This document shows positions 1 through 8,382 of a DNA stretch of 48,198 nucleotides, in pieces. Every line of letters begins with the position of its first letter. Position 1 is the stretch's first letter. This stretch comes from Vicingaceae bacterium (lineage in GTDB: Bacteria > Bacteroidota > Bacteroidia > Flavobacteriales_E > Vicingaceae), in NCBI GenBank assembly GCA_019429185.1, contig JAHYJH010000013.1:1-48198 (forward strand), given 5' to 3'. The position numbers were made by a program, and so were the translations under genes. The notes below the pieces were generated by a model, which was not told the DNA's origin, did not search any database, and saw only the letters and a list, made by a program, of their open reading frames with translations.

Positions 1-3000
1 ATTCCATCACAAGCTCCAAAGCAAGTTTCTGGAATTATGTTGGTGATTGTTAAGTTTAGTCCATTGGTATTAATGGTTACGGTATCTACTGTAACACAAT
101 TATTAGAGTCTGTTATGGTAACGGTATAAAAATTGGCACAAAGACCTGTTGCAAAAAAACCATTTCCTCCTGTAGGACTCCAGCTATAGGAATATGGAGC
201 TGTTCCGCCACTAACTGAAGCTAATGCTGTTCCATTACAAGCACCTGTACAAGTTTCATCAGTTGAAGTAATTACAACAGTTGCCGAACTATTACTATTA
301 ATAATAATGGTATGATTAGAAATACAACCTGTGCCTAAATCTGTAATTTGTAAATTAATAGTACCTGCACAAAGCCCATTTACGGTTGATGTTGGTTGAT
401 TTGTTACAGTTATTGGCAAAGTTGGGTTAGCTCCAGTAACAACTGTATAAACAAAATCATAAGGACCAACACCTCCAGAAGGAGTAGATGTTACACTTCC
501 ATTACAGACACCACAAGTTGGACTAGTAACCGTTGCGTTTTCATTAATAATCGCAGGGGCAGTTAAAGTAATGGTATCATTTATTGCACAATTATTTGCA
601 TCTGAAATTACAACAAAATAAGTACCTGCACATAAATTAATGGCTGTTTGCGTAGTTTGTCCATCACTCCAATTGAAAATGTAAGGAGGAACGCCTCCAA
701 CAGGATTAGCAGTTGCAGTTCCATTACAAACTCCGTTACAAGATGGATCAACTCCCGAAATAGTAGTTGTTAAAACAGGGTTATCAACAATAGTTATTTG
801 AATAGAATCAACACAGCCATTGTTATCTGTTATTGTTGCGGTGTATATTCCAGCACAAAGTCCAGTAGCTAAATTATTGTTTTGAGTAGGCGTAGTACTC
901 CATGAATAAGTATAACCGGGCGTTCCTCCAGAAACAATAGCTAAAGCAGTTCCATCACAATCGCCAAAACAAGTTGGGGTTGTTAGGTTAGATGAAAGTG
1001 CAAGAACAGTAGGCTCAGTTATTACAACACTATCTTGAATAGAACAACCATTGTTATCGGTAATTGTTACTACATAAGTTCCTGCACATAAGTTGGTTAT
1101 TGTTGGCGTTGTTTGTCCTCCTGGCATCCATAAAAAAGTATAAGGAGCAATTCCACCTGTTGGATTAGCGGTTGCTGTTCCATCACAAAGACCATTGCAA
1201 GTAACATTTGTTTGCGTTAAATTAGCTAAAATTTGAGTAGGTGTTTCAACGGTAATTGTATCAACAGTTATACAGCCATTGGCATCTTGCACAACAACGG
1301 AGTAGAGTCCTGAACATAATGAAAAAGCACTGTCGTTTGTTGTTAATACAGGGTCGTTCCATTGGAAAATGTATGGAGCATTGCCTGAGTTTACCGTTAA
1401 ATAAGCTAATCCATCACAAGAGCCGAAGCAAGTTACACTATCTGCACCCAACGTTATGCTTGGTCCGTTGGGATTACTGATTAATACATTTAGTGTAGAT
1501 GAACAACCATTTGCATCTGTAATTTGAAGTGTGTATGAACCCGGACATAAATTATTGATGGAAGGAGTAGTTTGACCTCCGGGTAACCATAAAAAAGTAT
1601 AAGGAGCAGCACCACCAGAAGGAGCAGAAACTGTTGCTGTACCATTACAAACACCACAAGTAGCATCAGTTGTGTTTGTGGTTGCAGTGATTAAATTACC
1701 TTCTCCAATAGTAATATTACCTTGAGTAGAGCAACCGTTTGCATCTGTAACTGTTACTGTATATGTGCCAGCAGTAAGCCCTAATGCAGTTTGAGTAGTA
1801 GCACCATTGTTCCAAGAATAAGTATAAGGAACTGTTCCTCCTGAAGGAGTAGCAGTAACAGATCCATCGTTGCCTCCGTTACAAGAAGCATTGTTACCAC
1901 TAACACTTACGGTTAATGTATTGGGTTGATTTATTGTTACATTTTGAACAAAACTACATCCAACAGCATCAGTAATCGTAACCGTATAACCTCCTGCACA
2001 AAGTCCTGCCACTGCATTAAGCGTAGGCGTAGATCCTGCACTCCAACTATAAGAATAGGGTGGTATTCCTCCGCTTGGTGTTGCTATTGCAGAACCATCG
2101 CAAATACCATTGCAAGTGGCATCAATAGTAGTTACCGAAGCAGTAATTGGTGAATTATCAGTAATTGTAATGTTTTGAACGGTTATACAACCATTTCCAT
2201 CGGTTACCTGAACAGCATAAGCTCCCGCACAAAGTCCGTTTATGTTTGTTGTGGTTGCTCCTGTACTCCATAAAAAGGTGTAATTAGGTGTTCCTGAAGT
2301 AACTGAAACCGTTGCACTTCCATCACAAACACCATTGCAAGTTGCATTCGTTTGCGTTACAGAAATTACAGGTCCGTTTGGATTACTTATCGCCACAGGA
2401 ACTGAAATCATACAACCATTTGCATCGGTAATATCAACATTATAAATCCCTGCCAATAATCCATTAACACAAGGTGTTGATGGGCCAAAATCCCATAAAT
2501 AAGTGTAAGGAGCTGTACCTCCCATTGGAGCAACACAAGCTGTTCCATCAGCATTTCCACAAGTTGCCATAGTGGTAGTTAGGTTAGGAACAATAACAGT
2601 AGGCTCATTAATGGTTATCGTATCATTTCCTGTGCAACCATTTGCATCTGTAATAACAACAAAATAGGTTCCTGCACATAATCCAGTTGCTGTTTGGGTA
2701 GTTTGAGCTAACGCATCGTTCCATAAATAAGTATATAGAGTTACTCCTCCTGTTGGATTAGCTGTTGCAGTACCATTGCAAACTCCGTTACACAACGCAT
2801 CGGTTGTTGTTGTGTTTGAAGTTATTCCTGTAGGAGCTGCAATCGTAAAAGTTACTAATTTAGAACAACCGTTAGCATCGGTTATGGTTACACTCGCAGC
2901 ACCAGCACATAAACCTGATGTAGAAGCAGCAGTAGAACCATTACTCCATAAGTAAGTATAAGGAGCTGTACCTCCCGAAGGATTTACATTTGCTGTTCCA

Positions 3001-6000
3001 TTGCAAAAACCATTACAAGCAGTATTTGTAATGGATAAATTTTCAGTGATACTATCGGCTTCTCCAACCAACACAGTAGTTGCTAACACACAGGCATTAG
3101 CATCTGTTAAGGTTAAAAAATAAGTTCCCGTACATAAATTTGTTAACGTACTATCATTTGGATAAGGGCCTCCCGGAGGAACAGATGTCCAAGCATAAGA
3201 AAAAGGGGATAACCCGCCAATAGGAATAGCATTTAACCCACCATCACAAGCTCCAAAACAAGATGCATTGATAACCGTTGATGTTATTCCTGATGGTCCG
3301 GTAGGATTACTCACTGCCATAGTAAAAATTCCTATACAACCATTATTATCTGTAATGGTATCGGTATAAAATCCCGGGCATAAATTTGTTATTATTGGAG
3401 TAGTTGCTCCATTAGACCAAGAATGAGTATAAACACCACTTCCTCCTGTTGGTAAAGTTGCTATAACACCATCACAAACACCACAATTTGCTGGAGTTAT
3501 GGTTGGATTTGCACTAATATTTGCCGGTTCATTGATGGTTACGGATCCTATAAAGAAACATCCAAATGAATCTGTTACAGTTACTGTATAATTTCCCGGA
3601 CATAATCCTGTTATGGTTGGTGTGTTATTGGGCACAGGATTACACGTTCCTACCCAAGAATAGGAATAAGGAGGCGTTCCTCCTACAGGAGCTGCTGTAG
3701 CCGTTCCATCAGCTTGTCCATTACAAACAACATCTGTACTGCTAAGCGTAACATTCAATGTTGTAGGAGAGTTTACAATAAATGAATCTAATCCAGTACA
3801 CCCATTAATGTCTGTTACCAAAATATAATACGTGTCTTGACACAAACTATTAATAGATTGATTTGTGCTAAAATTAGGATTAGTTGATGTTGACCATTGA
3901 TAAATATACCCAGGAGTTCCACCTGTTGGATTTGTTGTTGCTGTTCCTGTGCAAGGCGTACCACCACAAGCAATACCTGTTCCTGTTGCTGTTGGATTAA
4001 TTTGGTTTGGTTCTGTAATGGTATAATTCTGTGTTGTAGTACAACCGTTAGCATCAACAACAGTAACTGAATAAGGCCCTGGTGCTAAATTATATATGGT
4101 TGCTGTATCAAGAAATGTCGATGACCAATTATAAGTATAAGGCAATGTTCCTCCATTCACAAGTATCCCAGCTGTACCATCATTAGCTCCAAAGCAAGTT
4201 ACATTGGTTGATACTGCATTTGAAGATAATAAAACAGGTTGATTTATTGTATATGTTTCAATTCGAGAACAACCATTAGTATCTGTAATTGTAACAGTGT
4301 AATTTCCTGCGGGTTGGTTGTTAATACAAGCTCCAATTCCTAATCCACCTGACCATAAATAACTAAACCCTGGTGTTCCTCCAGTTGGTGCAAGACATAT
4401 ACTTCCATTTCCAGTGCCATTGCATGTTAAATCAGTAATCGTAGGATTAGGCGAAATAGTATCAGGATTAATAATTGTTAATGTATCTGTTTGAACACAA
4501 TTACCTGCATCAGTAACTGTAACAACAGCAAATCCTGCACATACATTATTTGTATCAGGTATAGACCATGATATGCTGTATGGTGGAGTTCCACCTGTTG
4601 GTGCAGAAGAAACCATGGCATCACAATTACCATTACAACTAATTTGTTGATCTATAGTAGCATTTGGAACCAATACAGTAGGAGATACAGGCATGAATAC
4701 TGAATCTACTGAAAAACAATCATTTGAATCAATTACTGTTAAATATATCCAACCTGGACATATACTGTCTGCTAAAGAAGTATTATCTCCATTAGACCAA
4801 CTGTAAGTGTATGGAGGTGTTCCTCCAGAAGGAGTTGCTATAGCTGTACCATCACACAATCCATTACAACTTATAGTTATTGGGTTAGCAACAATAACTA
4901 TCGTAATTAAAGGTGCTATTGTTACCGATCCGTTGGTTGTACAACCATTGGTATCTGTAACAACTACAGTATAGGTTCCTGCACATAAATTGGTAGCCGT
5001 TTGAGTTATTTGAGAAGCAGTATCATTCCATTGATAGGTATATCCAGATGTTCCGCCAACAGGAGTTGCTGTAGCAGAACCATCACAAGTGGTTTGGCAA
5101 CTTGCAGCAGTGGGTACAACATTTACAGATAAAGCCGGAGGATTAGTTATGGTAACGGTATCTTTACCTATACAACCATTTGCATCTGTAACAGTTACTT
5201 CATACTGTCCCGGACCTAAATTATTTATGGGATTTCCGGCAATTGGAGTTCCAGGCAATAACACCCAACTAATGTTATAATTAGGAACACCTCCATTAGG
5301 AAATGAACCTGCACTCCCATCATTTGCTCCATTACAAGAAATAGCTGTAAATTGAACATTCGGATTTAAAACCGCAGGCTCTGCTATAACCACAGAATCA
5401 ACTGTAGAACATAAATTAACATCTGTAATGGTTACTATGTATGTTCCAGCACAAAGATTTGCAATTGAGTTTGTTCCTTGACCAGTAAATGTAAGCCCAA
5501 TAGGATTGGTTGTCCAATTATAACTATAAGTACCTGTCCCTCCAACAGGAATTGTTGTTGCCGAACCATTACAAACATTGTTGCACAAAAGGTTTGTCCC
5601 AGTTGTTGTTGTTGTTAGGGCACCAGGTTCAATAATTGTAAAATTGAGGTTGAGCGGACAGTTATTTGCATCTCTAATGATAACAGTTTGTGGTCCAGCA
5701 CAAAGATTAGTTATGGTATTAGATCCTACAACAGGAATAAAAGGTCCACCGTTCCAAGAAACAGTATAGGGAGGAATACCTCCAGCTGGAGTTATGGTAG
5801 CTGTACCATCGCAAACACCATTACAAGAAGCGTCTGTTTGAGTTAAACTTGCTGTAATTGCCAAAGGTTCATTTACGGCAATAGAAGCGTTGGCAGTACA
5901 TCCATTAGCATCAGTTATGTTTATGGTGTAAGTTCCTGCACATAAATTAGAAATAGTTGGGGTTCCTTGTCCTGTTGAAACTTGCCCAGCAGGAATGCTT

Positions 6001-7560
6001 GTCCATACTATCGAAGAATATGGTGTTGTCCCTCCATTAATTACTGCCGTTGCTGTTCCGTCACAAACACCATTACAACTTATATCTGTTTTAGCAAGTG
6101 TAATAGATACAGGTTGAGGAGCAACCAATGTAACACTATCGATGGCAACACAATTATTTGAATCGGTAACTGTTACAATATAAGTTCCTGCACATAAACT
6201 ATTAACAGGATTTGTAAAATAAGGACCACCCGGACCGTTCCAAAGAAAAGAGTAAGGGGTTGTTCCACCTGTTGGGTTTGCTGTAACACTTCCATCACAA
6301 ACTCCAGCACAAGAAGGAGGTGTTGATGATGGATTGGCTACTAACAAAGCCGGTTCTGTGATAGTTATCGTATCCGAAACTGTACAACTATTACTATCAA
6401 TAATATCTACAATATATTGACCGGGACATAGGTTAAAAATAGAATCTGTTCCCTGTCCTCCAAAAATTAATCCCCCGGGAATGGATGACCAAGTATAAGT
6501 ATATCCCGGAGTTCCTCCAGAGGTTGTTGTAACCGCAGTTCCATTACACGTTCCAAAACAAGTTACATTGGTTGAGTTGGTTGAAGTAATTAAAGGTTGC
6601 GGTTCCGTAATGATAATGGTAACAACAGTATCACAACCATTTCCATCAACTATAGAATCTGTGTAAGTTCCGATGCATAAGTTATTGATGGTTGAAGACA
6701 ATCCTGTGCTATTAAACCCATTACTCCAAAAATGAGTAAATGGAGCAGTTCCACCACTTAGAATATTTACCGTAATTGAAGCATCACAAAGTCCACCACA
6801 ACTTACTTGTTGCACTATAGTATCCCATTGTAATTGATTAGGAATGGTAATCGTTACGCTATCAATTGCCGAGCAACCTTGAGGGTCAGAAACAGTTACT
6901 CCATAAACACCCGGACATAAATTAGTTAAATTAGGCGTTACTTCTCCATTGGGAGTCCATAAATAAGTATAAGGACCACCATTTCCACCAGTTACTAATG
7001 ATGTTGTAGCTGTTCCTGTGCAAGTTCCAAAGCAATTGATGTTGGTACTATCTAATTGAAAAGTTACTGCAGGAGTTTGTGCTAAATTAAAATTTTGAGA
7101 AGCGGTACATCCATTGGCATCAACAACATTTATGGTGTAAGGTCCTGCACATAGGTTATTAATAATAGCTGTTGTGTCAGGTACTTGTACCCATGAAATT
7201 GTATATGGAGGAACTCCAAAAGCAATACTAGTACCTATGGTACCATCACAATCACCATTACAGCTTGGAGGAATAACGCCTATTTGATTAATAGCAATAG
7301 CAATAGGATTCGTAACAAGAACTTGATCGGAACATTGTACACCAAAAGGTGGACTTTGTCCTAAATCAGTTACTTGAACACCTATATTACCTTGACAAAC
7401 ATTAAAGAGCGTATCGTTAGTGTTGCCAGGTGGTGGAGCTCCAAGCCATAAAAAAAGAAAAGGTCCTACACCTCCTGTTACCGAAACTACAACAATAGCA
7501 TCGCAAGCACCTTGGCAAGAAACGCCAAAACCATTATAATTGGAAATAACGGTTGTAGTT
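1..7560 (-). repeat. SprB-type tandem protein repeats (32 complete plus one partial)
   Basis: The CNGxCDG-like motif recurs at roughly 7510, 7265, 7030, 6795, 6560, 6310, 6075, 5830, 5585, 5335, 5100, 4870, 4635, 4425, 4200, 3970, 3735, 3490, 3260, 3020, 2790, 2560, 2340, 2115, 1890, 1660, 1430, 1200, 970, 730, 520 and 255, with a partial copy near 25. Mean period is about 234 nt. Copies are divergent in sequence but similar in length. Most carry four cysteines: CNG (C1), xCDG (C2), LCAG (C3) and NGC (C4). Confidence 0.9.
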
Positions 7561-8351
7561 ATGGTAAAAGCAGGAGAACCACAAGGATTCCGCATTGTTG
7601 TTCCATTGCTCAGGGTAACTGTTTTTTCATCAATGTTGCCTAATTTTATTTCTTGAGCGTTTCGGAATACAATTACATCAGATTCATCATTAGCTAACGT
7701 GAAATTAGGAGCATCAAAAACAGCTTTGTTGTGCGTGTATAAAACCGCTTTGGTTAAGTTAATTTTTTTAACTGCATTGCCTTGATTAACAATCCCTCCC
7801 GAATAAATGGTAATGTTGTTTGCTTTTATTTCTCCTTGTTTGATATAAATGTAATTTGAATCTGTTAAAACAACATCATCAACCATATTCCATGTTCCAA
7901 CACCATCAAATTCAATATCACCTAAAAAAGATTTTCTTGCTGATTTTAAAATGGTATTAGGTTGGTTGGATGTGAAAATTATTTTTCCATAAAAGTTATT
8001 TTCAAACAACTGGTTTAGTGAAAAATTGCCCGAAACTTGAAATGTTGCTGCTGTTGTTGATGAAAATTCAACAGATTGATTTGAAGAAAAGTTAAAATTA
8101 GCTGCTTTAATGTTTCCTGTTACAGTTATTGTTCCTGTTTGATTAAACGATTGTTGATTAATATAAACATTATCATTTATAGTTGGTATTCCAACGCCTC
8201 CATTTCCACCACTTGTGGCAGACCAATGCGAAGCATCATTCCAGTTTCCACTATTTCCTACCCAATATAAATCGGCAGCAAAAGAATTAATTGCGAGCAT
8301 CAAAACCACTAATAGTTTAGATACCAATATACTATCTTTTCTAAAATTCAT
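1..8351 (-). CDS. Giant SprB-repeat surface adhesin, 3' end outside window
   Basis: One open frame of 2783 codons runs from ATG at 8351 off the left edge without a stop, so the C-terminus is missing. Residues 1-25 form a signal peptide ending NSFA. Residues of about 26-260 are a beta-rich region starting DLYWVGNSGNWNDASHW, common at the front of large Bacteroidota surface proteins. From about residue 270 there are 32 complete tandem repeats and the start of a 33rd, spaced about 78 residues. Each has CNGxCDGTA, a GGTPPYxYxW core, LCAGxYxVTVTD and NGC. This is the SprB repeat; in Flavobacterium johnsoniae, SprB is the T9SS-exported adhesin moved along the surface during gliding. By inference this protein is exported by the same route and would carry a T9SS or gliding-associated C-terminal domain beyond the window. 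Repeat family and secretion are well supported; a role in gliding is not shown. Confidence 0.93.
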   Translation of the reverse strand, partial: MNFRKDSILVSKLLVVLMLAINSFAADLYWVGNSGNWNDASHWSATSGGNGGVGIPTINDNVYINQQSFNQTGTITVTGNIKAANFNFSSNQSVEFSSTTAATFQVSGNFSLNQLFENNFYGKIIFTSNQPNTILKSARKSFLGDIEFDGVGTWNMVDDVVLTDSNYIYIKQGEIKANNITIYSGGIVNQGNAVKKINLTKAVLYTHNKAVFDAPNFTLANDESDVIVFRNAQEIKLGNIDEKTVTLSNGTTMRNPCGSPAFTITTTVISNYNGFGVSCQGACDAIVVVSVTGGVGPFLFLWLGAPPPGNTNDTLFNVCQGNIGVQVTDLGQSPPFGVQCSDQVLVTNPIAIAINQIGVIPPSCNGDCDGTIGTSIAFGVPPYTISWVQVPDTTAIINNLCAGPYTINVVDANGCTASQNFNLAQTPAVTFQLDSTNINCFGTCTGTATTSLVTGGNGGPYTYLWTPNGEVTPNLTNLCPGVYGVTVSDPQGCSAIDSVTITIPNQLQWDTIVQQVSCGGLCDASITVNILSGGTAPFTHFWSNGFNSTGLSSTINNLCIGTYTDSIVDGNGCDTVVTIIITEPQPLITSTNSTNVTCFGTCNGTAVTTTSGGTPGYTYTWSSIPGGLIFGGQGTDSIFNLCPGQYIVDIIDSNSCTVSDTITITEPALLVANPSSTPPSCAGVCDGSVTANPTGGTTPYSFLWNGPGGPYFTNPVNSLCAGTYIVTVTDSNNCVAIDSVTLVAPQPVSITLAKTDISCNGVCDGTATAVINGGTTPYSSIVWTSIPAGQVSTGQGTPTISNLCAGTYTINITDANGCTANASIAVNEPLAITASLTQTDASCNGVCDGTATITPAGGIPPYTVSWNGGPFIPVVGSNTITNLCAGPQTVIIRDANNCPLNLNFTIIEPGALTTTTTGTNLLCNNVCNGSATTIPVGGTGTYSYNWTTNPIGLTFTGQGTNSIANLCAGTYIVTITDVNLCSTVDSVVIAEPAVLNPNVQFTAISCNGANDGSAGSFPNGGVPNYNISWVLLPGTPIAGNPINNLGPGQYEVTVTDANGCIGKDTVTITNPPALSVNVVPTAASCQTTCDGSATATPVGGTSGYTYQWNDTASQITQTATNLCAGTYTVVVTDTNGCTTNGSVTIAPLITIVIVANPITISCNGLCDGTAIATPSGGTPPYTYSWSNGDNTSLADSICPGWIYLTVIDSNDCFSVDSVFMPVSPTVLVPNATIDQQISCNGNCDAMVSSAPTGGTPPYSISWSIPDTNNVCAGFAVVTVTDAGNCVQTDTLTIINPDTISPNPTITDLTCNGTGNGSICLAPTGGTPGFSYLWSGGLGIGACINNQPAGNYTVTITDTNGCSRIETYTINQPVLLSSNAVSTNVTCFGANDGTAGILVNGGTLPYTYNWSSTFLDTATIYNLAPGPYSVTVVDANGCTTTQNYTITEPNQINPTATGTGIACGGTPCTGTATTNPTGGTPGYIYQWSTSTNPNFSTNQSINSLCQDTYYILVTDINGCTGLDSFIVNSPTTLNVTLSSTDVVCNGQADGTATAAPVGGTPPYSYSWVGTCNPVPNNTPTITGLCPGNYTVTVTDSFGCFFIGSVTINEPANISANPTITPANCGVCDGVIATLPTGGSGVYTHSWSNGATTPIITNLCPGFYTDTITDNNGCIGIFTMAVSNPTGPSGITSTVINASCFGACDGGLNAIPIGGLSPFSYAWTSVPPGGPYPNDSTLTNLCTGTYFLTLTDANACVLATTVLVGEADSITENLSITNTACNGFCNGTANVNPSGGTAPYTYLWSNGSTAASTSGLCAGAASVTITDANGCSKLVTFTIAAPTGITSNTTTTDALCNGVCNGTATANPTGGVTLYTYLWNDALAQTTQTATGLCAGTYFVVITDANGCTGNDTITINEPTVIVPNLTTTMATCGNADGTACVAPMGGTAPYTYLWDFGPSTPCVNGLLAGIYNVDITDANGCMISVPVAISNPNGPVISVTQTNATCNGVCDGSATVSVTSGTPNYTFLWSTGATTTNINGLCAGAYAVQVTDGNGCITVQNITITDNSPITASVTTIDATCNGICDGSAIATPSGGIPPYSYSWSAGSTPTLNAVAGLCAGGYTVTITDAVGCSFVQNVTINQPNTLTVSVSGNNASCNGGNDGSVTATPSGGTVPYTYSWNNGATTQTALGLTAGTYTVTVTDANGCSTQGNITIGEGNLITATTNTTDATCGVCNGTATVSAPSGGAAPYTFLWLPGGQTTPSINNLCPGSYTLQITDANGCSSTLNVLISNPNGPSITLGADSVTCFGSCDGLAYLTVNSGNAPYIFQWNDPVLTTNDSAFSLCSGLYSVVVQDANGCITVDTITVETPTQILANLTQTNVTCNGLCDGTATANPTGGIAPYTFLWMPGGQTTPTITNLCAGTYVVTITDNNGCSIQDSVVITEPTVLALSSNLTTPTCFGDCDGTALAIVSGGTPGYTYSWSTTPTQNNNLATGLCAGIYTATITDNNGCVDSIQITIVDNPVLTTTISGVDPSCNGVCNGTATANPVGGVPPYIFNWSDGQTTQTAINLCAGTYFVVISDANNCAINDTITLTAPAIINENATVTSPTCGVCNGSVTSTPSGGVGPYDFVYTVVTGANPTLPITVTNQPTSTVNGLCAGTINLQITDLGTGCISNHTIIINSNSSATVVITSTDETCTGACNGTALASVSGGTAPYSYSWSPTGGNGFFATGLCANFYTVTITDSNNCVTVDTVTINTNGLNLTITNIIPETCFGACDG

Positions 8352-8382
8352 CACTTATTTTTTATTAAGAGAATAATTACGA

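Follow-up and report, generated by a model that had tools for sequence, protein, structure and literature searches.

Coupled cysteines in SprB-type repeats of Bacteroidota predict an optional disulfide within the repeat and a disulfide staple between neighboring repeats

The repeats of SprB-type adhesins are very probably Ig/Fn3-like domains that carry an optional disulfide bond within the repeat, between cysteines C2 and C3, and a disulfide staple from C1 of one repeat to C4 of the next, written C1(i)-C4(i+1), at nearly every junction. The evidence consists of the co-occurrence of the cysteines, their coupling, effects at the ends of the arrays, changes on a tree of orthologues and a predicted strand order. 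The window, which is the whole stretch of DNA analysed, comprises 48,198 nucleotides of a contig from a Vicingaceae bacterium (JAHYJH010000013.1) and contains part of one such adhesin gene:

3..8354, minus strand, N-terminal part of an SprB-type adhesin ORF; 2,784 amino acids, 32 complete repeats, open at the contig end

This ORF gave tandem matches to the SprB repeat family PF13573 (E 2e-197, 638.8 bits; cut-off 28). The rest of the gene was found on a second contig (locus L020 on contig C15), which carries another six complete repeats, a CHU_C type-B T9SS C-terminal domain (E 7e-27) and an SprF gene. Because the 87-base overlap of the two contigs (positions 1-87 of the window, contig C160, and 6707-6793 of L020) falls inside the adhesin gene, the gene was split by the assembly. 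The PorP_SprF gene adjoins the array in L020 (E 1.6e-83) and also in the related locus L103 (E 1.5e-81). With 32 and six repeats, the CHU_C domain and the PorP/SprF gene on L020, the complete locus is an SprB-SprF pair with 38 repeats, and 38 is also the total in the orthologues. Judged from its repeats, CHU_C domain and SprF neighbor, the product of the joined gene is predicted to be an SprB-type gliding adhesin. A TIGR04183 match inside the repeats was rejected as spurious, as no stretch passes alone and the true C-terminal domain is CHU_C. The number and order of the 38 repeats are kept across genera (window 3-8354 with L020, L103, L129, L096, L097 and L114). Identity is about 50-70% and no gain or loss of repeats is apparent, an unusual degree of conservation for a tandem array of this length.

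The cysteines in a large repeat alignment fall mostly at columns 24 (C1), 28 (C2), 62 (C3) and 76 (C4) of the model. The window repeats were parsed with an independent HMM. The initial annotation had counted 26 of the 32 complete repeats with four cysteines. The parse gave the same numbers, namely 26 repeats with C2 and C3, five with neither and one with C3 only. The repeats that depart from the canonical pattern are the following:

7332..7583, minus strand, first repeat; C1 codon 7515-7517; C1 to C3 present, with C4 shifted to a longer FG loop (TDLGQSPPFGVQC; DLGQSPPFGVQC)
5172..5402, minus strand, repeat 10; C1 codon 5334-5336; C2 and C3 absent (CNGAND / NLGPG)
4269..4490, minus strand, repeat 14; C1 codon 4422-4424; C2 and C3 missing, pair relocated to columns 33 and 57 (GSICLAP / GACINN)
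4041..4262, minus strand, repeat 15; C1 codon 4194-4196; C2 and C3 absent (CFGAND / NLAPG)
3558..3791, minus strand, repeat 17; C1 codon 3723-3725; C3 retained but C2 exchanged for a cysteine near column 50 (VGTCNP)
2412..2627, minus strand, repeat 22; C1 codon 2559-2561; C2 and C3 missing, pair relocated to columns 33 and 57 (GTACVAP / TPCVNG)
1731..1949, minus strand, repeat 25; C1 codon 1881-1883; C2 and C3 absent (CNGGND / GLTAG)

The joint absences described earlier near 5335, 4200 and 1890 thus correspond to repeats with C1 codons starting at 5336, 4196 and 1883, and the two repeats in which the pair was said to have moved start their C1 codons at 4424 and 2561. The repeat near 3735 that was thought to exchange C2 for a new cysteine does so (C1 codon start 3725). 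It had also been stated that C1 and C4 are never lost; this held for C1 throughout the window, and C4 of the first repeat is displaced. The relocated pair of repeat 14 is common to L103 and L129, and that of repeat 22 is not present in these same-genus orthologues.

We collected 3,681 complete repeats from about 195 Bacteroidota loci in two non-overlapping sets. The window and 116 loci supplied the 2,018 complete repeats of set 1, and set 2 held 1,663 repeats after removal of ORFs overlapping set 1. C2 and C3 were both present or both absent in 99.3% of the 3,681 repeats. A many-genome alignment scored for joint loss of the two cysteines, the check proposed with the original observation, gave phi values of 0.97 in set 1 and 0.98 in set 2, with counts (both, C2 only, C3 only, neither) of 362/1/18/1637 and 199/3/4/1457, respectively. 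The association was equally strong (phi 0.98) inside arrays that mix both kinds of repeat, and when 3,284 consecutive repeat pairs were subjected to mean-field coupling analysis, C2-C3 was the top direct coupling overall (z 40). Both cysteines were present in 561 repeats and both absent in 3,094 of the 3,681 (84%), and from these counts the repeat without C2 and C3 looks like the majority form in the phylum. The word "lost" is probably right as a direction inside this SprB clade. Two further cysteine pairs were observed. One is optional, has its cysteines at columns 67/68 and 1-8 residues after C4 (YCVTVTDANGC...C; phi 0.40 and 0.37 in sets 1 and 2) and possibly links strands F and G; the other is an extra pair near the BC loop (columns 37/38 and 43) in L087, L100, L104, L111, L119, L126 and L127.

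Changes in C2 and C3 were then placed on a tree of nine colinear 38-repeat SprB arrays (the window with L020, L103, L129, L096, L097, L121, L138, L114 and L188); L181, L124 and L100 were left out, as their register was unconvincing. L103 and L129, from the same genus, align one-to-one with the 38 repeats at 71% mean identity, and in L103 all 38 of 38 best matches are in register. The other six are in register with a clear score excess over shifted registers or background. C2 and C3 vary at 16 positions, with minimum changes of 19 for C2, 18 for C3 and 21 for the joint state. Every change of C2 only (positions 5, 16 and 23) was accompanied by a cysteine at column 49.5/50, and C3 was never absent with C2 retained across the nine orthologues. 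Since the clade of L114 and L188 carries the pair nearly everywhere, loss is the likelier direction within the SprB clade, tentatively, with the root of the tree set by midpoint. At position 21 a cysteine pair is present at columns 33/57 in the window and at columns 35/56 in L121, and the other relatives without C2 and C3 have none; by this comparison, a cysteine pair is gained or lost there as a unit at neighboring sites.

The co-occurrence of C2 and C3 might instead be due to inherited repeat subfamilies or whole-repeat gene conversion, without functional pairing, and neighboring repeats are indeed alike (C2(i)-C2(i+1) phi 0.62). We consider this very improbable, since C2 and C3 change jointly at 13 positions of the colinear set, in which each repeat has retained its identity; changes of C2 alone are always accompanied by a replacement cysteine, and two lineages have relocated pairs at position 21.

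Five consecutive repeats (3516..4688, minus strand) of the canonical, relocated, absent, canonical and C2-replaced kinds were modelled with AlphaFold2, using 148 other aligned rows. The pLDDT was 95.6 and the pTM 0.73. This pTM is a high value for a tandem of five domains, and it suggests that the domains have a defined arrangement relative to one another in the model. The predicted fold is a tandem array of antiparallel Ig/Fn3-like β sandwiches, with matches to GhpA, titin and fibronectin. Its strand order is A-B-C-E-F-G; the AB loop carries C1 and C2, the EF loop C3 and the FG loop C4. The established topology of antiparallel Ig/Fn3 sandwiches has the AB and EF loops at the C-terminal pole and the FG loop at the N-terminal pole, and by predicted strand order C1, C2 and C3 are at one pole of the domain and C4 at the opposite pole. 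Because of this polarity C2 and C3 can be close to each other, as can C1(i) and C4(i+1), whereas C1 would be far from the C4 of its own repeat; the bond geometry proposed below is derived from this arrangement. The suggestion of an optional C2-C3 disulfide was supported by co-occurrence, the top coupling, joint changes on the tree and a common pole by strand order. A predicted C2-C3 disulfide that is intra-repeat, optional and relocatable is therefore strongly supported by the alignments and the model.

The companion suggestion, a C1-C4 disulfide within each repeat, was not supported. The two cysteines are each nearly universal, and a model with C2-C3 and C1-C4 bonds both inside one repeat would retain the well supported C2-C3 half. 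The same-repeat C1-C4 bond itself was rejected, since the association was near zero in both sets (phi 0.09 and -0.03), the coupling ranked 100 of 2,556 (z 1.7) and the strand order puts the two at opposite poles. Moreover, set 1 contained eight same-repeat joint absences of C1 and C4 against 19 expected by within-array shuffling, and the effects at array ends described below separate C1 from C4. The model with both bonds within the repeat is hardly credible on these data.

C1 was instead coupled to C4 of the following repeat. In set 1 the counts for C1(i) and C4(i+1) (both, C1 only, C4 only, neither) were 1746/4/7/28 with a phi of 0.83, so that joint absences (28) outnumber discordant pairs (11); within-array shuffling gave a mean of 10.6 joint absences and a maximum of 17 in 1,000. 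In set 2 the counts were 1480/4/11/4 (phi 0.36, p 4.5e-7), weaker than set 1 at internal junctions, with four joint absences against 0.84 by within-array shuffling. Joint absence occurred in 13 arrays of set 1 and three of set 2, and all these C1/C4 counts are to be read as coming from related repeats of the same arrays and not as independent events. C1(i)-C4(i+1) ranked first of 5,698 inter-repeat couplings (z 13.4) in the mean-field analysis of the 3,284 consecutive pairs. The pairing in the other direction, C4(i)-C1(i+1), was tried and rejected as weaker (phi 0.30 and 0.05). Five of the 11 C4-only discordances of set 2 came from one array, L256; its five repeats without C1, each followed by a repeat that keeps C4, are the main exception to the inter-repeat rule. 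As the coupled pair is C1(i) with C4(i+1), the second predicted disulfide most likely connects neighboring repeats, judging from the alignments and the modelled strand order.

Duplication of two- or three-repeat blocks could produce such coupling by shared ancestry without any contact. In some arrays the cysteine pattern does alternate or has a period of three, and the repeats of L194 are more similar at lag 2 than at lag 1. However, joint absence is spread over 16 arrays, the very diverged repeats of L155 have only slight lag-3 similarity, and the array ends and C-terminal domains considered next provide evidence independent of duplication. We therefore regard duplication as an improbable source of the C1/C4 coupling.

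If C1(i) is bonded to C4(i+1), C4 of the first repeat and C1 of the last repeat have no SprB partner. The staple idea came from set 1, and set 2 served as replication for the end tests. C4 was missing from 14 of 90 first repeats compared with 27 of 1614 internal repeats in set 1, and from 13 of 56 compared with 6 of 1374 in set 2; first repeats had no excess of C1 loss in either set. Likewise, C1 was missing from 15 of 94 last repeats (28 of 1614 internal) in set 1 and from 13 of 63 (15 of 1374 internal) in set 2, and no excess of C4 loss was observed in last repeats of either set. In the last repeat before a type-B C-terminal domain (CTD), C1 was kept if a cysteine follows and missing if none does in 12 of 12 arrays of at least three repeats, a restriction that was applied afterwards with the same cut-off as in the first- and last-repeat test. 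With short runs included, the rule held in 17 of 22 arrays (p 0.011); four single-repeat proteins that retain C1 before a cysteine-free CTD speak against the staple.

Coupling reports proximity and not oxidation, and C1(i) and C4(i+1) could be adjacent but bind a metal or remain thiols. The oxidised state was inferred here from the presence of two cysteines per site and the location at the cell surface, which generally favor a disulfide, and from the tendency of a partnerless cysteine to be missing at array ends. Metal binding or free thiols thus seem very unlikely.

Taken together, the SprB repeat would be a small Ig/Fn3-like β sandwich with two disulfide systems. C2 in the AB loop and C3 in the EF loop would form the optional intra-repeat bond at the C-terminal pole, and this bond could be absent, replaced by a cross-strand B-E pair (columns 33/57 or 35/56), or altered by exchange of C2 for a cysteine in the loop that follows strand C. 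C1 of repeat i, in the AB loop at the C-terminal pole, would bond C4 of repeat i+1, in the FG loop at the N-terminal pole. The shortest covalent path would then lead from C4(i) through about 26 residues to C1(i+1) and across the disulfide to C4(i+2), or about 26 residues per two domains instead of about 152. Two such interleaved paths would bypass most of each domain, and unfolded domains could add little length. With staples at every junction and two short paths, we infer a nearly inextensible filament as the mechanical role of the bonds. SprB transmits propulsive force in gliding, and such a filament would suit a load-bearing gliding adhesin.

Staples omitted in some arrays could act as hinges. 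In L155, an array of 23 very diverged repeats, the C1(i)/C4(i+1) pair is missing at about every third junction, and this period-3 pattern suggests trimer modules with unstapled joints. Adjacent missing staples were observed zero times against 3.7 expected when runs of fewer than four repeats were excluded; the short array L144 has adjacent ones. A parity of missing staples that would leave one ply intact was unsupported (13 of 27 pairs, shuffle mean 12.5). We give roughly even chances to the broader proposal that, across Bacteroidota, arrays of the SprB and GhpA types are almost inextensible covalent cables, with junction staples, two load paths, placed hinges and C2-C3 bonds that tune the domains. 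If every junction is stapled, the stiffness and extensibility of SprB would be set covalently and reducing agents should soften the filament, and its secretion would have to allow either for a rod that is already stapled or for extracellular oxidation. In many Bacteroidota adhesins, the junctions between domains, the ends of the arrays and possible hinges would also be marked by this cysteine code.

The adhesin described here has the same repeat family, CHU_C domain and adjacent PorP/SprF gene as SprB of Flavobacterium johnsoniae, whose PF13573 repeats belong to a type-B T9SS substrate carried by SprF. Among the open papers searched, those that mention SprB repeats report no disulfides or cysteines in them, and no description of disulfides within SprB repeats was found; an earlier description for GhpA is possible. 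Disulfides have been reported in the gliding/T9SS machinery between SprF or PorG and GldK (PMC12635249). These are likewise load-transmitting links in the same motility system, but they join different periplasmic proteins, whereas the proposed staples join neighboring domains of one surface filament. The giant tandem Ig-like adhesin of Mobiluncus mulieris is also covalently stabilised, with ester, isopeptide, thioester and disulfide bonds within domains and a flexible interdomain linker in crystal structures (PMC10619420); the bonds there are intra-domain, whereas the one proposed for SprB lies between domains. The nearest solved structures are those of grappling hook protein A (GhpA) of Aureispira sp. 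(Foldseek E 1e-12, VIA-align Z 11-13), deposited from cryo-EM as 9FLP, 9FLS, 9FLU, 9FLV, 9FLW, 9FLX, 9FLY and 9G8B. GhpA differs from SprB in giving no match to a single-repeat SprB profile at E 1 and in having hardly any other cysteine between C1 and C4 over a stretch of about 20 domains. It has a profile match at E 8e-51, and over those domains its sequence follows the same cadence of C1, 55-58 residues, C4, 26-29 residues and C1.
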